This document shows, in pieces, positions 297-52,314 of a stretch of DNA of 52,483 nt (positions are counted from its first letter, which is position 1; each line of letters begins with the position of its first letter). The translations under genes were made by a program, and so were the position numbers. The stretch covers positions 1-52,483 of the forward strand of contig JAMOVQ010000047.1 of NCBI GenBank assembly GCA_027067575.1. Reading direction: 5' to 3'. The stretch comes from Thermoanaerobaculia bacterium. Its GTDB lineage: Bacteria; Acidobacteriota; Thermoanaerobaculia; Thermoanaerobaculales; Sulfomarinibacteraceae. Under the pieces are notes generated by a model. It saw nothing but the letters and a program-made list of their open reading frames with translations. It did not search any database and was not told the origin of the DNA.

Positions 297-3200
297 ATGG
301 AACGGGATCACTCCCTGATCTCGGTGATCGTGCGCACGAAGGACCGCCCCCGGGTGCTGCGGGAGGCGCTCGAGAGCATCGCAGTCCAGACCTGGCGGCC
401 GGTCGAGGCCGTGGTGGTCAACGACGGCGGTTCCGCGGTAGGCGAAATCGTGGAGGCGTTCGGGGGCCGGCTCGACGTGACGCTGCTGGAGCACGAGCGA
501 AGCCGGGGCCGTGTCGAGGCGGCGAACGCGGGGATCTCAGGGGCACGGGGCGAATGGATCGCGTTCCTCGACGACGACGACCTCCTGCTCCCCGAGGGTC
601 TCGAGGCGCTGATGGGGGCCACGGGCGGATGGGCATGTGTGGCGTACGGCCGGGTTCCTGCCGTGCGCTACCCGCCGGAGGGCGGGGAGGCCGGAAGGAC
701 GATCCGGACGTTCGGCATTCCGTTCGACCCCGACCTGCTGCTGTTCGAGAACTTCATCCCCATCGTGGGTTGCCTGATTCCGAGGGAGGCGCTGGAGGCG
801 GTGGGCGGACTGGACGCCTCGCTCGAGGTGTTCGAGGACTGGGACCTGTTCCTCCGCCTGTCGGACCGCCTGGAGTTCCGGTTCGTCGACCGCGAGGTCG
901 CGCGGTACCGCATTTTCGGCGAAGGGTTCATCACCGGAGCCGGGGGGGCGGGACTCCAGCACCGCGGCCGGGTGCGGATCTACGAGAAGCACCGGGAGCG
1001 GTACACCCCCGAGGCGTTGAGCCGGATGGTCGTCGCGGTCAAGGAGCGCCTGGTTCCCGCTGAGCTGGAGCTCGCGGACGCGGAACGGGACCGGCGGCTC
1101 GAGGCGATGGAGGAGGGGATCGCGTACCTGAGGTCGCAGGTCGCTGCGCTCCGGGAGGAGGCCTCCGGCTGGCGCGACCGCGCCCGCACCGCGGAGGAGA
1201 CCCTGCTGGGAACGCTGGGGACACTCCCCTCAGAAACACAAGGGACAGTCCCCTCAGAAATTGGGATTGGGGCGCGATCCACCGAGGGCGGGGTAGATGT
1301 GAAGGAGACACTCCCCATTGACGGCGCGGAACAGGGGACACTCCCCGGCAGCGAGGAAGCACCAGGTTCGAGCGGACCTGCGCTGGGGAGACTCCCCGGG
1401 AGTGAGGCCGTGGAGGGGACACTCCCCGAGGGTGGGCTGCCGAAGGTCTCGGTGGTGATGGTCAACTACAACGGCCGCCACCACCTGGAGCGGTGCCTGC
1501 CGGCTCTCGCCGCGACGCGGGGCGTGCCGCTCGAGCCGATCGTGGTGGACAACGGATCGACGGACGGCTCGGTGGAGTGGCTCCGTGAGGCCCATCCCGA
1601 GGTGGTACTGCTGCCCCAGGGCCGAAACCTGGGGTTCGGGGCGGCGAACGCGATCGGGGTCGCTGCGGCGTCGTCGGAGTGGATCGCGCTGCTCAACACG
1701 GACACCGAGGTGGAGCCGGGCTGGCTGCTTCCGCTGCTCGAGACGATGCAACGTGACCCGGGGATCGGGGCGGCGTGCAGCACGCTGCGGCTGCTCGAGC
1801 GGCCGGAGATCCTCAACGCCCGCGGCGGCGGGATGACGAAGCTCGGTTTCGGCTTCGACCACCGGTTCGGCGAGCCGTACGTGGCCGAGACCGCCGAGCG
1901 GGAGGTGCTGTTCCCGACGGCGGCCGCCATGCTGATGCGCCGGCACGACTTCCAGGCGCTGGGCGGGTTCGATCCGGCCATGTTCATGTACCACGAGGAC
2001 GTGGACCTCGGCCTCCGGATCTGGCTCTCCGGCCAGCGGGTCGTGGTGTGCGGCCGCTCGGTCGTCCGGCACCTGTTCGGGGGGACGACCCGGACCGAGC
2101 GTTCGCTGGCGTGGCGGGAGCGCCTGGGGCAGCGGCACGCGCTGCGCTCCCTCCTCGTCTGCTCCGAGCCCATGACGCTGGCGCGCGCCCTCAAGGGGCT
2201 GCTCGGCCTCTGGTGGCGGCGGCGGGCGTTCGGACGGGCCCTCCACGCCCTCGCCTGGAACCTGCTCCACCTCCCCGGGACGCTCGCGCGCCGGTGGAGG
2301 GTGCAGCGCGTCCGGAGGATCCGCGACCGCGAGCTGTTCGAGCGGTGGCTGATCCTTCCGGGGCCGTGGCCGCCGCCTGCGCCCGAGCTGCCGCGGTCCG
2401 GCGGCCCCGGGAGGAAGACGGACTGGATCGAGAACCCGGTGCTCCGGCCCGGCGAGGCCTCGGCGGTGGGCCGTCTCGGGCCGGGGTGGTATGCCGCCGA
2501 GAACGTGTCGGGCCGGAGGGCGAGGCCGACGTGCGGCCGTGCGGTCTGCTGGCTGAAGGTCGCGCCCTCGGTGACGGGGCGGATCGAGCTCGAGGTCCAC
2601 GTTCCGCCGTCGGCCGCTGGCCGGACGCTGACGGTCCACGCCAACGGCGCGGAGGTCCGCGAGACGCTGGACGGCTCCCTGTGGCAACGGGTGGCCGTGT
2701 GGACGGCCTCCACGTCCCAGGGGATCGTCACGGTGGAGATCGATGTCCCCGAGTGGATCCCCCACGAGCTCGAGGGGAACTGGGACTTCCGCCGTCTGGG
2801 TTGCGCCGTCGCCTCCGTCCGGTTCGTGCCCGACGAGCCGGTCCGGACCACGGAGGAGCCGCTCGTCACCGTGTTGATCCCGACCTACGAACGGGCGGCG
2901 GTTCTCGAACGGACGCTGGAGGCGCTGGCCGGCCAGACGTGGGGACACTTTCAGGTGGTGGTGGTGGACGACGGCTCGTCGGACGGGACGCCGGAGGTGC
3001 TCGAACGGTGGAGCCGGAACGGGCGGCTGGATCTCGTGGCGCTCCGTCAGGAGAACTCGGGTCAGGGAATCGCCCGGAACCGCGGGCTGGCCCACGCACG
3101 GGGCGACCTCGTCCTCTTCCTCGGCGACGACACCATCCCGGAGCCCGGGCTCGTGGAGGCCCACGTCGCGATGCACCGGAGGACCGAAGGGCCGTGCGCG

Positions 3201-3773
3201 GTGGTGGGGTACACGGGGTGGGACCCGGAGACGGTGCGGGAGACCTCGGCGCTGCGGTACGCCAACGAGGAGGGTCCCCAGTTCGGGTACGGGCACATGC
3301 GCCACGGCGAGGAGGTGCCGTACACCTGCTTCTACACCTCCAACGTGTCCCTGCCGCGGGAGGTCCTCGGCGGGGAGCCGTTCGATCCCACGTTCCGCGT
3401 CTACGGGTGGGAGGACGTGGAGCTGGGCTACAGGCTGGCGTTGCGGGGCCTCCCCATCGTCTACGCGGCGAACGCCAGGACGCGCCACGCCCACCCGATG
3501 ACGTTCTCCCAGCTGATCCGGCGGCAGATCCGGGTGGGGGAGAGCCTCGACACCCTCCTCGCGATCCACCCGGGACTCGAGACCGATCCGGTGATGCCGC
3601 CGGCCCGCCCCCCCGCCGTGGTCCGGGTACTCCGGCCGTTCCTGCCGCTGAGTGTCCCCATGCTCTCGCTCCTGGACGGTCTTGGCCTGCCGATCCCGCG
3701 CCGCGTGCTCGCCGCCCACTTCCTTGTCGGCTTTTTCGAGGGGCGGCGGCGGGCGGCGGCCCGGCGGAGGTGA
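297..3773 (+). CDS. Three-domain family-2 glycosyltransferase
   Basis: Predicted cytosolic or membrane-associated polysaccharide glycosyltransferase, 1158 aa. Domain 1 (about residues 5-270) is a GT-A fold starting SVIVRTKDRP with FLDDDDLL. A short coiled coil follows at about 255-302. Domain 2 (about 382-680) starts VSVVMVNYNG with NTDTEVEPG. About 150 residues resembling a beta-sandwich come next. Domain 3 (about 855-1110) starts VTVLIPTYER with LGDDTIPEP and the acceptor-side motif WEDVELGYR. Multi-GT2 proteins of this kind build O-antigen or exopolysaccharide. The linker at residues 307-378 is encoded by six copies of the GGGGACACTCCCC palindrome, giving repeated GTLP/GTVP/GRLP peptides. 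That linker is low-complexity and unlike the flanking domains. No Shine-Dalgarno site is visible; a -10 box sits 6 nt upstream. Confidence 0.9.
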   Translation: MERDHSLISVIVRTKDRPRVLREALESIAVQTWRPVEAVVVNDGGSAVGEIVEAFGGRLDVTLLEHERSRGRVEAANAGISGARGEWIAFLDDDDLLLPEGLEALMGATGGWACVAYGRVPAVRYPPEGGEAGRTIRTFGIPFDPDLLLFENFIPIVGCLIPREALEAVGGLDASLEVFEDWDLFLRLSDRLEFRFVDREVARYRIFGEGFITGAGGAGLQHRGRVRIYEKHRERYTPEALSRMVVAVKERLVPAELELADAERDRRLEAMEEGIAYLRSQVAALREEASGWRDRARTAEETLLGTLGTLPSETQGTVPSEIGIGARSTEGGVDVKETLPIDGAEQGTLPGSEEAPGSSGPALGRLPGSEAVEGTLPEGGLPKVSVVMVNYNGRHHLERCLPALAATRGVPLEPIVVDNGSTDGSVEWLREAHPEVVLLPQGRNLGFGAANAIGVAAASSEWIALLNTDTEVEPGWLLPLLETMQRDPGIGAACSTLRLLERPEILNARGGGMTKLGFGFDHRFGEPYVAETAEREVLFPTAAAMLMRRHDFQALGGFDPAMFMYHEDVDLGLRIWLSGQRVVVCGRSVVRHLFGGTTRTERSLAWRERLGQRHALRSLLVCSEPMTLARALKGLLGLWWRRRAFGRALHALAWNLLHLPGTLARRWRVQRVRRIRDRELFERWLILPGPWPPPAPELPRSGGPGRKTDWIENPVLRPGEASAVGRLGPGWYAAENVSGRRARPTCGRAVCWLKVAPSVTGRIELEVHVPPSAAGRTLTVHANGAEVRETLDGSLWQRVAVWTASTSQGIVTVEIDVPEWIPHELEGNWDFRRLGCAVASVRFVPDEPVRTTEEPLVTVLIPTYERAAVLERTLEALAGQTWGHFQVVVVDDGSSDGTPEVLERWSRNGRLDLVALRQENSGQGIARNRGLAHARGDLVLFLGDDTIPEPGLVEAHVAMHRRTEGPCAVVGYTGWDPETVRETSALRYANEEGPQFGYGHMRHGEEVPYTCFYTSNVSLPREVLGGEPFDPTFRVYGWEDVELGYRLALRGLPIVYAANARTRHAHPMTFSQLIRRQIRVGESLDTLLAIHPGLETDPVMPPARPPAVVRVLRPFLPLSVPMLSLLDGLGLPIPRRVLAAHFLVGFFEGRRRAAARRR
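1217..1427 (+). repeat. Six GGGGACACTCCCC-type palindromes inside a coding sequence
   Basis: Exact 13-mers lie at 1217-1229, 1334-1346 and 1415-1427. Near copies are at 1242-1254 (the GGGGACAGTCCCC variant), 1304-1316 and 1385-1397. A hairpin CAGGT/ACCTG lies between copies (1363-1380). All are read in frame in the glycosyltransferase linker between domains 1 and 2. Confidence 0.9.
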
Positions 3774-3780
3774 GCGCGGC

Positions 3781-5358
3781 GTGGGTGCTCTCTCCGCTCT
3801 CCGCAGGTTCGCGGACGAGGTCCGGCGGCCGGCGTTCCTGTTCGAGCGCTGCTGGAGGGTGCTCGCCTGGCGGCGGTACGCCGGGCTCTACCGCAGGATG
3901 CTCGAGGCCGGGGAACTGCTATCCGTGCCGTCCTCCCCGCCGGCCAATGTCGCGTTCTCCGTCATCATGCCCGTCCACCGGGTGCTCCCGGAGCACCTCG
4001 AGGCCGCGGTGGCGTCCGTCCTCGGCCAGACCGTGCCGCCGCTGGAGCTCGTCCTCGTGGACGACGGGGCCCCGGACCCCGCGGTCACCGCGGCGCTGGA
4101 GCGCCTCGCGGCCGATCCGCGGATCCGCACGGTCCGGTTGCCGGAGAACCGGGGGATCGCGGCGGCGTCGGATGCGGGCGTCCGGGTGGCCCGGGGTGAC
4201 TGGCTGGTGTTCGTCGACCACGACGACCGCCTGCACCCCCGCGCGCTCGAGATCGCGGCGAGGACGCTGGCAGAGGTTCCCGACGCCGGATGGCTGTTCA
4301 CCGACGAGGACACCATCGACAGCGAGGGCCGGCACGGCCGGCCGGTACTGAAACCGGGGTTCTCCCGGCACCTGCTGCTCGGCTTCAACCTCGTCGCCCA
4401 CGCACGGATCCTCCGGCGCGACCTGTTCGAGGCGCTCGGCGGCCACGGGCGGGGCCTCGACGGCGCCCAGGACTGGGACCTCGCCCTGCGTGCGCTGGCC
4501 GCCGGGGCCCGCTTCGTGCATCTTCCTGGGGTGCTGTACCACTGGCGCCGGGTTCCGGGCTCCATGGCCCGGGGAGCGGGGGAGAAGCCGGCGGCGCGGC
4601 GGGCGGCCGTGACCGCGCTCCGGCGGTTCCTCACCGGGGTCGAAGGTGTCTCGGAGGTGACCGTCCGCCCGGCGCTCGCCCACGCCAGCCTGTTCGACGC
4701 CCGCTGGCGGCCCGACGCGTCGATCGGCATGTCGCTGCTCGGCAGTCCCGGAACCGGTGGGCCGCGCGTCCGGGAGCGGATCCCCCTCGACTCGTGGTCC
4801 GCCGAGGCGATCGTGCGTGCCGCCGGACGTGCCGGGGAGCCGTTCGTGCTCGTGGCGCCCGGCCGGGACGTGCCGCCGGAGGCCGTCGAGCGGCTCCTCG
4901 CGCGCGTCCTCGTTCCGGGAACGGCGGTGGTGGCGGCCCGGGGCGTGGACGGCGGGCGGGTGACGGCGAGCGGGTGGTGGGCCGTGGAGGGTGGGGGGAT
5001 TCGCGACCCGTGGGCCGGGCTCTGGCGTGGCGCCGCAGGGGCGTTCAACCTCGCGCTGTTGCCGGGGCCGCGCCTGATGCCGCCGCCCACGGCCTGGGTC
5101 GCCCGGCGGGATGCGTTGCTCGAGGGGTGGGAGGCCGTGGGGAGTGTCCCCATGCCGTGGCGTCTGGGGAGTGTCCCCATGGCGTGGCGTCTGGCGGCAG
5201 GGCTCGACCGGCTGGGGCTGGAGACCGTCACGGTGCCAGGCGCCGACGTGGCCTCGGGGGTTCCGGTTCCCCCGGCGCCCGCGCCCGCGTCCTGTTCCTG
5301 GCGGGAGGCGAGGTGGTGGCGCGAGCTGGGGTTTTCGAAAGGGAGCGATGCGCCATGA
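3781..5358 (+). CDS. Family-2 glycosyltransferase
   Basis: 525-aa glycosyltransferase. The GTG start at 3781 is supported by GGAGGTGA at 3767-3774, 6 nt upstream; the frame is open further upstream but overlaps the previous gene. After a basic amphipathic N-terminus, the GT-A domain (about residues 55-300) starts FSVIMPVHR. It has VDDGAPD, the DHDDRLHP metal/nucleotide-binding motif and, near its end, the acceptor motif QDWDLALR. The C-terminal half is unassigned and contains a 27-bp tandem duplication encoding GSVPMPWRL/GSVPMAWRL. It is the second gene of the polysaccharide operon and overlaps the sulfatase start by ATGA. Confidence 0.88.
   Translation: MGALSALRRFADEVRRPAFLFERCWRVLAWRRYAGLYRRMLEAGELLSVPSSPPANVAFSVIMPVHRVLPEHLEAAVASVLGQTVPPLELVLVDDGAPDPAVTAALERLAADPRIRTVRLPENRGIAAASDAGVRVARGDWLVFVDHDDRLHPRALEIAARTLAEVPDAGWLFTDEDTIDSEGRHGRPVLKPGFSRHLLLGFNLVAHARILRRDLFEALGGHGRGLDGAQDWDLALRALAAGARFVHLPGVLYHWRRVPGSMARGAGEKPAARRAAVTALRRFLTGVEGVSEVTVRPALAHASLFDARWRPDASIGMSLLGSPGTGGPRVRERIPLDSWSAEAIVRAAGRAGEPFVLVAPGRDVPPEAVERLLARVLVPGTAVVAARGVDGGRVTASGWWAVEGGGIRDPWAGLWRGAAGAFNLALLPGPRLMPPPTAWVARRDALLEGWEAVGSVPMPWRLGSVPMAWRLAAGLDRLGLETVTVPGADVASGVPVPPAPAPASCSWREARWWRELGFSKGSDAP
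5139..5192 (+). repeat. 27-bp in-frame tandem duplication starting with the REP palindrome
   Basis: 5139-5165 and 5166-5192 differ at one base. Each starts with GGGGAGTGTCCCC, the reverse complement of the REP 13-mer, and together they encode two 9-aa copies. The 27-bp unit preserves the reading frame. Confidence 0.92.
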
Positions 5359-7187: not shown

Positions 7188-9079
7188 GCCATGAGATTGA
7201 CACAAAGGGACACCACCCTCCGATGCAGGGAAGATGGAGGAGACACCCCCGACAGGCAGGGGACACTCTCCAAGAAGAGGATGCAAGGGATGAAAGGGAC
7301 ACTCTCCAAGAGATGCAAGGGACACACTTCCGGAGGGCGGTCCTCCACGCCGCGGTCCTCCTGATCCCCCTCATCCTCTGGATGTGGGTCGTTCCCCGGG
7401 CGGGGCGCGTCCAGTACAATGACTACTGGGGCGTCCTGGCCTCGGTGGTGGATCAGGGTGGGTTCACGACGGATCCCGTTCGGTGGCTGACGGTCAAGTC
7501 GAACGAGCACACCGTGGCGGTTCCCGCGCTGCTCTACGCCGCCAACGTGAGACTGACCCACGGTGACAACCGCGCACTCTCGGCGTGGGCGGTCCTCTGC
7601 ATGATGGTCACGGCCACGCTCGCCTGGCGTCTCGTCCCCGTGGGCGTTCGTGAGGCGCCGGGAACGGGAACGGCGCTCGCCGCCCTGACCGGGACGCTGG
7701 CCATGACCCCCGTGGCGGCCCACAACGTGGTCTACGGGTTCTCCGGAGCCATGTGGTTGAGCGCCAACGCGCTGTCCATCGCCGCGATCTCGCTCGCCTG
7801 GCAAGGGGTCCGCAAAGGGAGTGTCCCCTGGAGGCCGGGGATCGGCTGGGTCGTCGCGGCCTCGGCCGTGGGTCTCGCGGCCTCGCTGACGTACAGCACC
7901 GGTCTGGCGGTCTGGCCTGCGCTGGCCGTCGTGCTGCTCGCCGCAGGTGCTCCAGGGCGCTGGTTCCTGATTCCGGCACTTCCGGCCCTCGCGGACCTGG
8001 CGTTCGAGATGGCCACCTACGTGCGTCCTCCGTCGATCCCGCCGCCGGAGACGGGGAACCTGCCGTTGCTCGCCGGATACGTCGCCGTCTACATCGGACA
8101 CGTCCTGTGCCGCCCGCTCTGGCTGGCGGCGGCGGTCGGCGGAGGGGGGCTCGTCGCGGCGGCGGCTTTCGTACTGCGCCCACTGGGCGGGGCGGAACGG
8201 GGGAGACGGTTCCTCGCACCGTGGTACGGGATCGGTTGCTTCGCACTCGTCAACGCGGTCGTCACGGCGGTGGGACGGGCGAGCCTGGGGGGTGCCCGAT
8301 CGTCCCGCTACGCGACGCTGGCCGGCCTGTTCTGGCTCGCTCTGGTGGTCGTGTGGCTCACGGTACGGCGTGAACGGACGCGGCGGGCGGCGTGGCCCGT
8401 CGCCGTGATCGCGGTGCTCGTGGCCGCGACATGGGTCCGCGGCGCCCGGGAAGTTCGGCTGTACCTCGAACAAGCAGCGGAACAGCCCCTTGGTGCGCTC
8501 GCCTGGACCGCCGGGATCCGCGATGACGACGCGCTGCGGACGATCTGCCTCGTTCCGGACCAGCTGTGGCGTGTCCGGCCGCTGGCGATCCGGCTCCGGC
8601 ACGTTCCGTTCGACGGTCCCAGTCTGCCGGCCCCGGGGACACTCCCCGAACTCCAGGGGACACTCCCCAAGAGTCACGCACCAGGGACCGGGGACGGCCC
8701 CCTGGTGCGAGCAGCGGAAACGCCTGTGGCCCACACGCTCACGGTCTCGCGGACGGTGGGCGACATACTGGTCCTCGCTAGCGAACGGTGGCGGGACCTG
8801 TCCGGAGGGCGCCCTGCGCTGCTCCTGGACGGTTCGGGAGCGGTGGTGGGAGCTGTCGTCGGTCTCGGGAGGCTTCCGTGGCTGCCCGACCGTGTGAAGG
8901 GGTACGCCCTGCCCGCCGCTCGAGGCGAACGACGTCTGGCCGTTGCCGTGTCCGAGGGGGACGTGTGGAGGGTGGTGGGGAGTGCGGTCGTCAGCGGTGG
9001 CGGCGGTCGATCAGACGGCCCAGCAGACCGAAACGCGTGCGGGGGAGCTCCAGTCCCTCCGTCGGACCCTGCCGTGTAG
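7184..9079 (+). CDS. Polytopic membrane protein of the polysaccharide operon
   Basis: 631 aa from ATG 7184, which overlaps the sulfatase stop (ATGA). About ten hydrophobic segments occupy residues 47-430, followed by a C-terminal soluble region. The general look is that of GtrII-like or O-antigen membrane glycosyltransferases and ligases, but no diagnostic motif was recognised, so function is open. Residues 5-48 are encoded by four degenerate REP copies (repeated RDTLQE), so translation could instead begin at ATG 7313, just before the first membrane segment. More REPs are read in frame at 7816 (GSVP), 8635 and 8656 (GTLP). The last 89 bp overlap the convergent PIG-L gene. Confidence 0.7.
   Translation: MSHEIDTKGHHPPMQGRWRRHPRQAGDTLQEEDARDERDTLQEMQGTHFRRAVLHAAVLLIPLILWMWVVPRAGRVQYNDYWGVLASVVDQGGFTTDPVRWLTVKSNEHTVAVPALLYAANVRLTHGDNRALSAWAVLCMMVTATLAWRLVPVGVREAPGTGTALAALTGTLAMTPVAAHNVVYGFSGAMWLSANALSIAAISLAWQGVRKGSVPWRPGIGWVVAASAVGLAASLTYSTGLAVWPALAVVLLAAGAPGRWFLIPALPALADLAFEMATYVRPPSIPPPETGNLPLLAGYVAVYIGHVLCRPLWLAAAVGGGGLVAAAAFVLRPLGGAERGRRFLAPWYGIGCFALVNAVVTAVGRASLGGARSSRYATLAGLFWLALVVVWLTVRRERTRRAAWPVAVIAVLVAATWVRGAREVRLYLEQAAEQPLGALAWTAGIRDDDALRTICLVPDQLWRVRPLAIRLRHVPFDGPSLPAPGTLPELQGTLPKSHAPGTGDGPLVRAAETPVAHTLTVSRTVGDILVLASERWRDLSGGRPALLLDGSGAVVGAVVGLGRLPWLPDRVKGYALPAARGERRLAVAVSEGDVWRVVGSAVVSGGGGRSDGPADRNACGGAPVPPSDPAV
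7205..7331 (+). repeat. Degenerate REP cluster at the N-terminus of the membrane protein gene
   Basis: Decayed copies of the 13-bp palindrome: GGGGACACTCTCC at 7259-7271, GGGACACTCTCC at 7296-7307, GGGACACACTTCC at 7319-7331, and weaker forms near 7206-7222 and 7239-7250. They alternate with GATGCAAGG-like spacers. All are in frame with the gene starting at 7184. Confidence 0.75.
7816..7828 (-). repeat. Single inverted REP copy in coding sequence
   Basis: AGGGAGTGTCCCC, one mismatch from the reverse complement of the 13-mer. It is read as KGSVPW in the membrane protein, in a loop between hydrophobic segments. Confidence 0.75.
8635..8708 (+). repeat. Two exact REP copies plus a long hairpin inside coding sequence
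   Basis: Exact GGGGACACTCCCC at 8635-8647 and 8656-8668. They are followed by a perfect 9-bp inverted repeat, GCACCAGGG (8678-8686) with CCCTGGTGC (8700-8708). The region encodes a GTLPELQGTLPKS linker in the membrane protein. A similar REP-plus-CACCAGG arrangement occurs near 1334-1397. Confidence 0.88.
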
Positions 9080-11149: not shown

Positions 11150-11225
11150 GCAAACCTCTCCAAGGGACACTTTCCTTTCACCACTCACCACGTAGAGGGA
11201 CAGTCCCCAACGGTGTGCGGTGTGC

Positions 11226-11231
11226 TAGACT
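11226..11231 (+). promoter_or_regulatory. Possible -10 box of the RAYT gene
   Basis: TAGACT about 45 nt upstream of ATG 11277, immediately after the second upstream REP. No clear -35 box; the position 17 bp upstream falls in the REP. Confidence 0.35.
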
Positions 11232-11276
11232 GAGCGTGTCCCGTTCCGCGCAACGACGAGCGAAGGGAGCGCGTAC

Positions 11277-12218
11277 ATGGGACGTTTACCCCGACTGAAA
11301 TGTTCGAGTCACGATACGTGGTATCACCTGTACGCCCGTCTCGCGGGCAGGAAGGGTGAGTATCCGCTGGCCGATCCGCTACCAAGACGGCAGTTGATCG
11401 AGCTGATTCATCACTACGCGTCGATCTACTTCTGCGAGGTCGCGGCGTTCTGCGTCATGGGCAACCATTATCACCTCGTACTTCGCTTCGACGCAGAACG
11501 GGACGTGGACCGCAAGGAGCTCAGAGCTCGGGCGTATACGATGTATCGCGGCAAGCTAATGCGAGCCATCGTGGACGCCTGGGGGAAGGGGGAGTGGGAG
11601 CGGTACCGGCGACGGCTGTTCGACGTCTCGGAGTTCATGCGGAACGTACAGGGGATGTACGCCCGCTGGTACAATCGGACGTACGAGCGCCAAGGACGGC
11701 TGTGGGGAGACCGGTTCAAGTCGGTCCTGCTCGGGGATGAGCGGGCAGTGCTGGACTGCGTGCTGTACGTGGAGCTGAACCCGGTGCGGGCCGGGCTGGT
11801 GGAAAGGCCAGAGACGTTCGACGGCTCATCGGTGTTTCTACGGGAAGCTGGTGAAGACGGATGGCTGGTGCCGATTGAGCGGCTGATGCATCGGCAAGGA
11901 CGGAGCAGTGCGATGGTGGAGTTCCGGCAGCTGCTGTACCACCGGGGGGCTGTGCCGACCCGGGAGGGCCAGGCGAGAATCCCACAAAAGGTGCTCGAGC
12001 AGGAGACGGCGCGGGGGTTCCAGGCGAGAGGAGCATACCGGAAGCGGGTGGCGTACTGGGTGAACGGGGTGGTTGTGGGGACCGAGGGGTTCATCCGACA
12101 GCAGCTCGCGGCACTTCGGGAGGGGGGCATCTACAGGAGAAGACGGCATCCGATCCCACAGCTCGATGGAGTCCACTGGTCACTGAGGGCAGGGCGAGGG
12201 AAGCGGTTCCCGAGCTGA
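11277..12218 (+). CDS. REP-associated tyrosine transposase (RAYT, Y1/HUH superfamily)
   Basis: 313 aa. The HUH metal-binding pair is His64 and His66 in CVMGNHYHLVL. The likely catalytic tyrosine is Tyr128 in VQGMYARWYNRTY, followed by the family hallmarks GRLWGDRFKS and YVELNPVRAGLV. These are single-strand nucleases that bind and cleave REP hairpins. About 100 residues beyond the core form a C-terminal extension. ATG 11277 has AAGGGAG 8 nt upstream. No frameshift or internal stop is visible, so the gene looks intact. Flanking inverted REPs fit the GGGGACACTCCCC family found across the window, so it is the likely mobilising enzyme. Confidence 0.92.
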   Translation: MGRLPRLKCSSHDTWYHLYARLAGRKGEYPLADPLPRRQLIELIHHYASIYFCEVAAFCVMGNHYHLVLRFDAERDVDRKELRARAYTMYRGKLMRAIVDAWGKGEWERYRRRLFDVSEFMRNVQGMYARWYNRTYERQGRLWGDRFKSVLLGDERAVLDCVLYVELNPVRAGLVERPETFDGSSVFLREAGEDGWLVPIERLMHRQGRSSAMVEFRQLLYHRGAVPTREGQARIPQKVLEQETARGFQARGAYRKRVAYWVNGVVVGTEGFIRQQLAALREGGIYRRRRHPIPQLDGVHWSLRAGRGKRFPS

Positions 12219-12343
12219 ACGGCACGCGTCGCGACAATTTCGAGAAGGAAGACGGCGGGCCGACATGGGGGCCGATGTGGATTCGTGCGTTCGGATTGGA
12301 GGTTGTTCGGTCGGATCGGATCCGAAGTGGTTCCCAGAGGCCA

Positions 12344-12365
12344 CGGCAACTCGTTGGCGTTGCCG
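12344..12365 (+). repeat. 7-bp inverted repeat downstream of the RAYT gene
   Basis: CGGCAAC (12344-12350) and GTTGCCG (12359-12365) with an 8-nt loop. No T-run follows, so it is not a classic terminator. It lies in the 286-bp gap between the RAYT and the protease gene. The rest of that gap holds only the two inverted REPs and a -10 box. Confidence 0.45.
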
Positions 12366-12393
12366 GATGGTATGACATGAGGCAGAGTGTTCT

Positions 12394-12444
12394 GGGGAGT
12401 GTCCCATTTCATCGTCATCTCGTGGCATCGTGGGGAGTGTCCCC
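12394..12444 (-). repeat. Two inverted REP copies between the RAYT and protease genes
   Basis: 12394-12406 (one mismatch) and 12432-12444 (exact), both as GGGGAGTGTCCCC, opposite in orientation to the pair upstream of the RAYT. They are separated by 25 bp of spacer and share the following CATTTCA sequence. Confidence 0.88.
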
Positions 12445-12464
12445 ATTTCAGGCCTGGGAGCTGG

Positions 12465-12470
12465 TAGAAT
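12465..12470 (+). promoter_or_regulatory. -10 box of the trypsin-like protease gene
   Basis: TAGAAT 34 nt upstream of ATG 12505. A -35 at the expected spacing would fall at the edge of the downstream REP copy, and no consensus is visible there. Confidence 0.4.
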
Positions 12471-12504
12471 CGAGCACAGCGTGACCCTCGGAGGTACGGT
12501 TCGG

Positions 12505-14175
12505 ATGGTGCGCACTCTGCGAATGGTGTACGGCGTTGTTCTCGTTCTTGCGTGCATTCCAAGTTTCCTTGGTGCGGATGACGGTGGGCCGACCCTTCCC
12601 CGGGAGACGCTCGACCGGGTGATCCATGCGACGGTCTTCGTCAAGACACGGCGTGTCTTCCAGCGTCAGGAGTTCCCCGCGTCCGGGAGCGGCGTGTTCA
12701 TCTCCCCCGACGGGTACGTCCTGACGAACTGGCACGTGATCGCGGACCAGTTCTCGGGCTGGATCTGGGGCAAGGAGCACGAGATCACGAGCAAGGTTCT
12801 CAGCCTCTCCGTCGTGGTGGACAGCGGAACGACGCAGGAGAAGGAGATCCCGGCGGTGGTGGTCGCCCGGAACCGGAAGCTCGACCTCGCGCTGCTGCGG
12901 ACCGGCTACCATCCGAAGGCCTGGGTCGACCTGTCGACCGTGCCGGACGTCAGCCTCGCCCAGAGGATCTGGATCGTCGGGTTCCCCTACGGGCAGATGC
13001 TCTCCAGCTTCAAGGATCCGGACACGCTGGAGCCCAAGGCGAACCCCGAGGTCAGCATCGCCTCGGGAATGGTCACGTCGATCCGGCACGACAAGAAGGG
13101 CGACATCGCGGCGATCCAGATCGACGCGCCCGTGAACCCTGGCAACTCCGGTGGTCCGATGCTCGACGAGAAGGGCCGGGTCGTCGGGATCGTGTTCGCG
13201 AAGTGGACGAAGGGGGAAGGGCTCGGACTGGCGGTTCCCCCGGAACACATCCGGCGTTTTCTCTCGGATCAGCTCCTGAAGGTCCGCTTCAGGCCCGTGT
13301 CGGTCGGGGAGCCGCCCTCGCCGATCCACATCTCGATCGTCCCGCTCCTTGCCTCGAAGAAGCCGGTCGGTGGTACGGCCACGCTCCGCGGGGCCGACAT
13401 CCCGAACACGACGGCGCAGTTCACGGAGGCCGGCGATGGAGTCGAGGTGACGATCCCGTTTCCGGAGAGGATCGTTGGCACTGAGACTCCGGATCACTAC
13501 ATCGTGGTGGTGGAACTCGTCGATGCGGGCGGGATGCGGATCTTCCGGAAACGGTACCGTCTCAAGCATGTCGAGACGGCGGTGGGTCTCGTCCGGAGCG
13601 AACGGGACCCGGGATCGATGATGGAGGATCGCCGCCTCTTCGGTAACGACATGGAGATCAGGGACTACCTGAAGAGCCGGAAGGCGGCCGGGGAGTCTCC
13701 GAACTCGCTTTCCGGCATGGCGAAGAAGCTGAAACTCCGGAAGACCGAAGGCGGCTCGATCGTGATCGACAACAACTCGGTCCGCCGGATCGCCGCATTC
13801 ATTCCGGATCCCGAGGCGTACACGGCGCTGGAGAAGGAGGAGTGGAGGACGCTGTGCGAGGACTACGACAGCACGCTCTACCGGATCCGAAAACTCGAGA
13901 AGCGCATCGAAGAGCTGAAGAACGCCAGGGAGGTCACCGACAGCGTGTACGGCACGCTGGTCTACATCTACGTTCCATGGAGCAACGAGCGGATCTCCTC
14001 ATCTCAGAAGAAGAAGCTGATCGACCAGCACCGGCAGGAGATCACCAAGGCCCGGAGACACCTCGAGAGGCTCGGTCAGTTCATCGGCCGGGTGAATCTC
14101 GTACGCTGTCCGGCCGGAAAGTGGTATCGAGCGGTGGAGAGTCCCTGCGGGTATCCGGTCCTTCCGAGGGAATGA
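12505..14175 (+). CDS. Secreted trypsin-like (HtrA-type) serine protease
   Basis: 556 aa from ATG 12505, with GGAGG about 10 nt upstream. An upstream in-frame start would translate through a REP and is unlikely. The N-terminal 23 residues form a signal peptide (MVYGVVLVLACIPSFLGA). The protease domain (about 30-260) carries a full catalytic triad: His77 in TNWHVIAD, Asp127 in KLDLALLR and Ser215 in PGNSGGP. No PDZ domain follows. Instead there is a beta-rich segment and a charged C-terminal coiled coil (about 445-535). The likely role is periplasmic or extracellular protein quality control. It is a single gene between the RAYT unit and the convergent imuB. Confidence 0.86.
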   Translation: MVRTLRMVYGVVLVLACIPSFLGADDGGPTLPRETLDRVIHATVFVKTRRVFQRQEFPASGSGVFISPDGYVLTNWHVIADQFSGWIWGKEHEITSKVLSLSVVVDSGTTQEKEIPAVVVARNRKLDLALLRTGYHPKAWVDLSTVPDVSLAQRIWIVGFPYGQMLSSFKDPDTLEPKANPEVSIASGMVTSIRHDKKGDIAAIQIDAPVNPGNSGGPMLDEKGRVVGIVFAKWTKGEGLGLAVPPEHIRRFLSDQLLKVRFRPVSVGEPPSPIHISIVPLLASKKPVGGTATLRGADIPNTTAQFTEAGDGVEVTIPFPERIVGTETPDHYIVVVELVDAGGMRIFRKRYRLKHVETAVGLVRSERDPGSMMEDRRLFGNDMEIRDYLKSRKAAGESPNSLSGMAKKLKLRKTEGGSIVIDNNSVRRIAAFIPDPEAYTALEKEEWRTLCEDYDSTLYRIRKLEKRIEELKNAREVTDSVYGTLVYIYVPWSNERISSSQKKKLIDQHRQEITKARRHLERLGQFIGRVNLVRCPAGKWYRAVESPCGYPVLPRE

Positions 14176-16577: not shown

Positions 16578-16857
16578 GGGGACACTTCCCGAGACTTGGG
16601 ACCCTCCCTTGCTTTCGAGATTGTGAGATTGCTCCAGGGGACACTCCCCTTGCCAAGATGTTGGTTCCAGTTCGGTTCCGCTCGATTCGGTTCTAGGGGA
16701 CACTCCCCTTGGGCTCTGAGGGAGATTCTCCGGCTCGGCTCCAGGGGACACTCCCATACTTTGCTTGGCTCCAGGGGACACTCCCTTACCTTGCTTCTAG
16801 AGGACACTCCCTTGCCTTGCCATGCTCAGCTCTGCTCAGCTCCAGGGGACACTCCCC
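16578..16857 (+). repeat. Seven-copy REP array in the imuA-cmk intergenic region
   Basis: All copies are in the same orientation: 16578-16590 (one mismatch), 16637-16649 (exact), 16696-16708 (exact), 16744-16756 (one mismatch), 16774-16786 (one mismatch), 16800-16812 (degenerate), 16845-16857 (exact). Start-to-start distances are about 59, 59, 48, 30, 26 and 45 bp. Most copies share the flanks GCTCCAG before and a TTGC-rich stretch after. This fills most of the 530-bp gene-free region 16525-17054; the rest holds the divergent imuA and cmk promoters. Confidence 0.93.
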
Positions 16858-22537: not shown

Positions 22538-23031
22538 CAGCACGAACGGTCCTGCCATGGTCCGACGGCTGTTTCGTCTGCGGTTCGGAGAACCCCCGCG
22601 GCCTCGGGCTGCGGTTCGAGGTCGAACCGGACGGGACGGTGGTGATCGACCCGCTTGTCATCGATGCGGCGTTCGAAGGGTACCCGGGCCACGTTCACGG
22701 CGGCGTGGTGACGGCGGTGCTCGACGAGGCGGCCGGATGGGCGTGCACCATGGCCTCGGGACACCTCCTGTTCACGGTGGAGTTCACCGTCCGTTTCCGC
22801 CGCCCCGTTCCAGGGGACACTCCCCTGCGGCTCGAGGCGAGCTGCCTGGAGAGCAGGCGAAGGATCTCGACGGGGCGTGCGGTGATCCTCGGCGGAGAGG
22901 GCAAGGTTCTCGCCGAGGGGGCGGGCCGGTTCGTGCGGGTCCCCGAGGCCGACGAACGGGCGACGATCCCCGAGCTCAGGATGCCCGGCCGGGCCGCAGA
23001 ACCGGAGGATCTCCGGGGGGGCGGCCGCTGA
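22534..23031 (+). CDS. PaaI-like hotdog thioesterase
   Basis: 165 aa. The N-terminus CFVCGSENPRGLGLRF and the core YPGHVHGGVVTAVLDEAAGWA match the 4-hydroxybenzoyl-CoA/PaaI hotdog thioesterase fold (HGGxxxxxxDE with Asp/Glu near the active site). Likely hydrolyses an acyl-CoA or acyl-ACP; substrate unknown. Overlaps lpxB by ATGA. An exact REP 13-mer at 22813-22825 is read as GDTP in the segment PVPGDTPLRLEA, where this family often has PxxGxxL. So it may be native sequence and not an insertion. Confidence 0.85.
   Translation: MTARTVLPWSDGCFVCGSENPRGLGLRFEVEPDGTVVIDPLVIDAAFEGYPGHVHGGVVTAVLDEAAGWACTMASGHLLFTVEFTVRFRRPVPGDTPLRLEASCLESRRRISTGRAVILGGEGKVLAEGAGRFVRVPEADERATIPELRMPGRAAEPEDLRGGGR
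22813..22825 (+). repeat. Exact REP 13-mer in the thioesterase gene
   Basis: GGGGACACTCCCC, isolated, read as G-D-T-P. No second copy or decayed copy nearby, unlike the other coding REPs. Confidence 0.6.
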
Positions 23032-51633: not shown

Positions 51634-52314
51634 GGGACGAGCAAAGCGATGTCCCCGTCGGCGCCTCGAAGAACCGTGCCCTCAACGATTTGGACAGCCC
51701 CCAACCCGACCGACCCGCCGGCCGAAACGAGGTGCCCCCACCTGGTACCCCACTCACCCGCCCGACCAGGGACGAGCGAAGCGACGTCCCGGTTGGCGCT
51801 CCAGAGAACCAGGCCCTTCACGATCGGGACGGTCCTCCAACTCGCCTGATCCGCCGGCCGAAACGAAGCACTCCCGCATGGTGCCCCACATACCCGCCGC
51901 CCCAGGGACGAGCGAAGCGATGTTCCGGTTGGCGCTCCAGAGAACCAGGCCCTTCACAATTGGGTCTGTCCCCTCGAGCAGCGCGATGCGGGCTGAAGCC
52001 CGCGCTCCGTTGGGCTCGCCCCGGACGAAGGAAAAACAATGTCCCCTGCTCCTGCCCTTCGGCCGAAACGAAGGCCCTTCGCGCGGTACCCCATCCCTCG
52101 CCCACCCAGGGACGGGCGAAGCAATGTCCCGGTTGGCGCCGCAGAGAACTAAGCCCTCCACGATTGGGACTGTCCCCGCAACCTGGCCGAAACCCCCGCC
52201 GAGAGGATGGCGCTCCACCTGGTGCCCCACTCATTCACCCGCCCAGGGACGAGCGAAGCGACGTTCCGGTTGGCGCTCCAGAGAACCGAGACCATCACGA
52301 TTGGGACTGTCCCC
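51634..52314 (+). repeat. Tandem array of about 136-bp repeats with two palindromes each
   Basis: Five clear units start at 51634, 51769, 51905, 52109 and 52246 (periods 135, 136, 204, 137). A decayed sixth starts near 52022. Each begins GGGACGAGCGAAGCGA followed by a closing GTCCC (or GTTCC), a hairpin. About 40 bp on each has GGTTGGCGCTCCAGAGAACC, then GGGACTGTCCCC or a variant (clear at 51826, 51962, 52166, 52303), which is the reverse complement of the GGGGACAGTCCC REP. This fills the gene-free region 51558-52483; nothing else was seen there except the insert at 51988. Confidence 0.88.
51988..52003 (+). repeat. Second palindrome type inserted in the 136-bp array
   Basis: GCGGGCTGAAGCCCGC, a perfect 7-bp stem with a 2-nt loop, followed by GCTCC. 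It lies in the extra segment that makes the third unit about 68 bp longer than the others. This motif resembles a common REP-like sequence of other genomes. Confidence 0.7.

Follow-up and report, generated by a model that had tools for sequence, protein, structure and literature searches.

A TIRtron-like transposase locus and its probable link to an amplified palindrome in a Thermoanaerobaculia genome

A transposase gene that stands between short palindromes, in a genome where the same palindrome recurs at many places, raises the question of what kind of mobile unit it is and whether its enzyme could have spread the repeats. The window analysed here, 52,483 nucleotides in full, is one contig (C47) of the 3.08-Mb genome of a Thermoanaerobaculia bacterium (G000, 191 contigs), and an earlier note had described the locus as an intact RAYT gene with inverted flanking REPs. 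The gene is indeed intact: the ORF list gives an uninterrupted frame of 313 aa, the protein scores above the cut-off of the Y1_Tnp profile (PF01797; 36 bits, cut-off 23), and it carries the motifs NHYH at residue 63 and YVELNP at residue 164, which are invariant or near-invariant in an alignment of its homologues. In the AlphaFold model confidence is low overall (mean pLDDT 58) and fair to good for residues 11-140, and the best PDB fold match of this partly weak model is 4ER8, TnpA-REP with a REP hairpin (E 3e-5, TM 0.53 by target). A search of PDB by sequence gave no match, nor did searches of PHROGs and Rfam.

The gene is flanked by four repeats of the GGGACA[C/G]T type, two upstream in forward orientation and two downstream inverted (Table 1). 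They belong to one family and are arranged as had been proposed, but it is not an identical 13-mer that stands on both sides, as the exact sequence GGGGACACTCCCC is found at only one of the four (12432-12444) and the left end has diverged. The exact copy overlaps the first GTG of a protease-like ORF (12430-14175), the true start of which probably lies further downstream.

Table 1. Coordinates of the transposase gene, its flanking repeats and related repeats in the window.
Feature	Position	Strand	Basis
Y1 (HUH/Tyr) transposase gene, 313 aa, TIRYT / subclass 2.3-like	11277..12218	+	ORF call, profile matches, motifs, fold
Outer left end, degenerate, GGGACACTTTCC	11164..11175	+	sequence, homologue-locus comparison
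Left-end palindrome AGGGACAGTCCCC, 2 mismatches to 13-mer	11196..11208	+	13-mer scan, homologue-locus comparison
Right-end palindrome, inverted, TGGGACACTCCCC, 1 mismatch	12394..12406	-	13-mer scan, homologue-locus comparison
Right-end palindrome, inverted, exact GGGGACACTCCCC	12432..12444	-	13-mer scan, homologue-locus comparison
Six palindrome copies, head-to-tail in-frame array, linker of ORF 297-3770	1217..1427	+	13-mer scan, reading frame, relatives
Two exact copies, 27-bp tandem duplication	5139..5178	-	13-mer scan, spacer comparison
Two imperfect copies, head-to-tail	7259..7307	+	13-mer scan
Single copy, GGGGACACTCCCT	7816..7828	-	13-mer scan
Two exact copies, head-to-tail	8635..8668	+	13-mer scan
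Seven-copy head-to-tail array, three exact	16578..16857	+	13-mer scan
Single exact copy	22813..22825	+	13-mer scan
GGGACATTGTTTTT, end of multicopy sister family type, 1 mismatch	52032..52045	-	scan for sister-family ends

The palindrome has the layout GGGGA-CAC-TCCCC, and its predicted fold is a hairpin with a stem of 5 bp and a loop of 3 nt (-3.3 kcal/mol). Twelve exact copies are present in the window, 20 with at most one mismatch and 34 with at most two, against 5.8 expected for the last of these and a maximum of 12 in 100 shuffles; the more than 25 places claimed earlier are reached if two-mismatch copies are included, about six of which would occur by chance, and not at one mismatch. The genome as a whole holds 47 exact copies (0 for a reversed control) and 426 matches with up to two mismatches (control 103), and the form GGGGACACT occurs 112 times (control 2) while being near its control in most relatives. 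The window is a hot spot: it makes up 1.7% of the genome and has 12 of its 47 exact copies. Over the 99 copies with at most one mismatch, conservation ends at 13 bp, apart from A/T at position -1 and a T-rich +13/+14, and the flanks are mostly unrelated. The exact 13-mers were not found in the literature searched.

This expansion is directly seen to be specific to the genome. Equal abundance in close relatives, which the earlier note had named as evidence against its reading, was not found, since 59 relatives hold 0-1 exact copies each. The palindrome is real, above chance and, to judge from the sequence evidence, correctly linked to a Y1 transposase. Among 396 genomes of the phylum, the 13-mer is present in 6 of 10 with a close enzyme (E<=1e-60, at most five candidates scored per genome) and in 26 of 386 without one (P = 3e-5), and with the window's own genome left out it is present in 5 of 9 with a close enzyme (P = 2e-4), both P values being only indicative because the genomes are related. 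A search for an empty site of the palindrome found none in the genomes covered, which included none of the same genus.

The ends of homologous transposase loci indicate where the repeat may come from. At 24 of 29 such loci, GGGACANT (N not T) lies upstream (within 300 bp) and/or in inverse orientation downstream (within 500 bp), and in 15 of the 29 on both sides; the hosts are Acidobacteriota, Myxococcota, Pseudomonadales and one unclassified bacterium, so that the inverted ends and their conservation in three phyla have direct support. The extension beyond the core depends on the lineage and is usually not palindromic, and the conserved feature in this comparison is the terminal core GGGACA[C/G]T rather than the palindrome. 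Palindromic ends are found at the window locus, at two further enzymes of the same genome (C189 and C69) and at one locus of a relative (G012:C44). The last genome has two homologous left ends, GGGGACACTATCAAGCTCTTGCC and GGGGACACTCCCCAACTCTTGCC, which may represent a step from a non-palindromic to a palindromic end. At three other loci, L202 (G357), L050 and L191, 4-6 transposon ends stand head-to-tail beside single homologue genes, like the arrays of the window.

A second line of evidence comes from a multicopy sister family in this genome (C152-type), whose five copies are 94-97% identical inside. These start exactly at GGGACACTG, and just 5' of it the identity between pairs of copies drops from 1.0 to 0.49 and further to 0.24-0.33, so that the divergence of the flanks is directly observed to begin exactly at GGGACACT. 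The right end, at C179, is the inverse, GAGAAAAACAGTGTCCC. Ends of the GGGACACTGTTTTT type number 68 with at most one mismatch (control 0); they are non-palindromic, and for the left end of the family no fold was predicted. Most of the gene copies run into the end of a contig, as would be usual for a repeat that interrupts the assembly. The family looks recently mobile, and its sequences point to it, rather than to the window locus, as the recently multiplied element here. Its inverted GGGACACTGTTTTTCTC ends occur on C152, C154, C180, C140, C116, C179 and other contigs of the genome. The right end of the window contig (51757-52483) likewise carries GGGACATTGTTTTT at 52032 and two copies of GGGGACAGTCCCA at 52165 and 52302, so the contig may break within such end repeats. 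Given the core shared across homologue ends and the break of the sister family at its end sequence, the best reading of the palindrome is that a transposon end has taken a palindromic form and been amplified.

We therefore regard the locus as probably a TIRtron whose palindromic ends were amplified as REP-like elements, with the window enzyme or its paralogues as putative mover; spread by the window enzyme itself is plausible from the sequence evidence. The gene, for a Y1 single-strand transposase, would have its own terminal sequence, with the core GGGACA[C/G]T, on either side as inverted copies; in this lineage that sequence would have turned palindromic, and copies of the end without the gene would then have multiplied in the genome as REP-like elements. 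We infer that the window enzyme or its paralogues (C189, C69) could recognise and bind the hairpin when the DNA is single-stranded, use the tyrosine to cut next to it and mobilise short pieces bearing the end. The head-to-tail clusters would then be side products of these events, together with some local duplication. Besides the homologue ends, the sister family, the phylum association, the hairpin fold and the TnpA-REP fold match, this reading is favoured by inverted neighbouring GGGACA[CGT]T repeats, of which 12 point inward and 1 outward, as transposon ends would, and by an intergenic excess of copies (61 of 99, against 19% of bases by a rough ORF call). Points opposing it are three relatives (G004, G012 and G013) that have 57-67% identical enzymes and only 0-1 exact copies each, a sister palindrome in genomes without a detected close enzyme, the head-to-tail rather than REPIN-like pairing, and the diverged left end. 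A more far-reaching version, which we put forward tentatively, is that these repeats show a REP family in the making. A subclass 2.3-like transposon would have had a non-hairpin end, made up of GGGACACT and a variable stretch, which turned palindromic in this lineage and then spread alone, head-to-tail, even into a protein linker.

The sister palindrome, GGGGACAGTCCCC, has 17-53 copies in each of five genomes (G345, G260, G275, G368 and G382) in which no close enzyme was found at E<=1e-60 with at most five candidates scored per genome, and the stretches around its sites in G345, G260 and G275 contain no close enzyme. The palindromic core thus recurs in the phylum, and one enzyme is not the whole cause. 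This abundance supports an alternative in which the palindrome still derives from a transposon end but owes its spread to a different enzyme, be it one since lost, one from the multicopy sister family or one from another Y1 subclass, and in which the window enzyme has similar ends by descent. That alternative would also suit the sister family being the recently mobile one, and the divergence at the left end of the window locus. What argues against it is that the ends are palindromic at C47, C189 and C69 while those of the multicopy family are of the non-palindromic GGGACACTGTTTTT type, and we consider it rather unlikely. Other Y1 genes of the GGGGACAGTCCCC-rich genomes were rejected as candidates, as they mostly have a HUH-Tyr spacing of about 60 and other ends or none, with G168 L233 and G217 L240 as exceptions. 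In G345 and in the G260/G275/G349 family, the GGGGACAGTCCCC core lies inside longer, lineage-specific palindromes with AATT or GAATTC-like arms (L247-L266 and L272-L279), and several Acidobacteriota have 14-53 exact copies per genome. At L222 (G345), a different Y1 gene (NHVH, HUH-Tyr spacing 60) has runs of GGGACAC-type units at 13-bp steps on each side.

The arrangement of the copies bears on how they multiplied. Close pairs are direct in 26 of 27 cases, which would suit dense window clusters built up from one unit by tandem duplication in place, with transposition playing little or no part; such duplication is clear at 5139/5166 and likely at C62:8255. The array at 1217-1427 could be explained in the same way, as its six copies share one reading frame that encodes LGTLP-type peptides in an interdomain linker. 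The linker block has 85 residues here and 21-35 in six relatives, a comparison that marks the array as extra DNA in this lineage and demonstrates the gain of an array, not of a single unit. For most direct neighbours, however, the spacer has only chance-like identity to the adjacent flank, which rules out tandem duplication as sole cause, and the 47 exact copies are scattered over about 30 contigs with unrelated surroundings, so this explanation is improbable. Lagging-strand bias was also rejected as a source of the direct clusters, since copies more than 300 bp apart on the same contig have the same orientation in 10 cases and the opposite in 17.

Least probable of all is a protein-binding or regulatory site (operator, terminator or nucleoid site) arisen by point mutation and selection with no transposition, which would fit a short, mostly intergenic palindrome with unrelated flanks and the one copy near the same gene end in G020, G028 and G032, but not an array inside a coding linker, the near-absence from relatives, transposase ends with the same core, or gene gaps that show no strong preference (1.3, 1.3 and 1.8 sites per kb in divergent, tandem and convergent gaps), the last also speaking against a terminator or operator. 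The three genomes just named belong to one genus, and their single GGGGACACTCCCC, at the same place in each (L029, L027 and L028), is probably inherited, not mobile.

A TIRtron with amplified palindromic ends can be placed beside several known systems. TIRYTs and TIRtrons were named by Di Nocera et al. 2013 for a Y1 gene that has, on its two sides, inverted repeats sharing a GGGGWSAS motif; the end repeats are in some genomes dispersed as singles, dimers and groups, and the hosts include Acidobacteria (PMC3733652). The window locus resembles these in its Y1 enzyme with HUH motif and catalytic Tyr, in its inverted GGGACA[C/G]T ends, present on both sides in about half of the homologue loci, and in ends dispersed through the genome, both palindromic and of the GGGACACTGTTTTT type. 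It differs in that what is dispersed is a 13-bp palindrome whose copies nearly always stand head-to-tail, and in that its protein is subclass 2.3-like, whereas most TIRYTs fall in subclass 2.1 (Quentin et al. 2018, PMC6006769).

Subclass 2.3 of TnpA-Y1 is described as having NHYH, YVDLNP, a median length of 325 aa, a HUH-Tyr spacing of about 110 and a 55-aa insertion between beta3 and alphaC (PMC6006769). Proteins of about 300-325 aa with NHYH, YV[ED]LNP, long HUH-Tyr spacing and several copies per genome are common to both, but the window protein has YVELNP, 313 aa and a shorter insertion at the right place. Its N-to-Tyr (HUH-Tyr) spacing is 101, against 113 in the Alteromonadales/Vibrionales members examined, and it is about 35% identical to the Alteromonadales members, so that as far as this evidence goes it can be termed subclass 2.3-like. 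The 2018 survey reported no REP-like sequences for subclasses 2.1 and 2.3 (PMC6006769), while GGGACA-type inverted ends were found here, which ties subclass 2.3-like proteins to such ends.

A canonical RAYT with REPs, as the locus had been labelled, is matched by the Y1 enzyme, by small hairpin repeats that flank the gene and are dispersed, and by the best fold match. The protein reaches only 52 bits on the RAYT model NF047646 (cut-off 80), no GTAG-type (5' GT[AG]G) tag was found in the flanks of the 99 copies, the stem is only 5 bp and the clusters are direct, not inverted. A link between a Y1 enzyme and the repeats remains probable, and TIRtron with amplified palindromic ends is the better name. 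REPINs are also short repeats tied to a Y1 transposase, but there the mobile unit is an inverted pair (Bertels and Rainey 2011, PMC3116915), and here only one close pair of the 27 has that orientation. IS200/IS605 insertion sequences would show high-identity copies and a subterminal hairpin at each end; the copies of the sister family are 94-97% identical, and its left end does not fold. Short palindromes in frame within ORFs are also known as Rickettsia palindromic elements (as cited in PMC3733652), but the unit here is shorter and is linked to a transposase family.

These comparisons bear on the origin of REP families: a single enzyme family that spans phyla, and of which several intact enzymes are available, offers for comparison a conserved transposon end, a palindromic form derived from it and an expansion confined to one genome. 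It was suggested by the authors who described TIRtrons that these might reveal how REP families begin (PMC3733652), and the restriction of the expansion to this genome among its relatives is possibly a snapshot of how bacterial repeat families begin. The copies are not all of one kind. Those that end in CCCG (C12:47507, C31:2912/3050, C142:30376, C153:24800, C62:8255, C138:848 and C5:1086 of G000) sit in a longer common repeat, in which gtgctg/ggtt precedes the 13-mer and atcgtgga...ggttctct follows it, and they perhaps form a second, longer repeat family.
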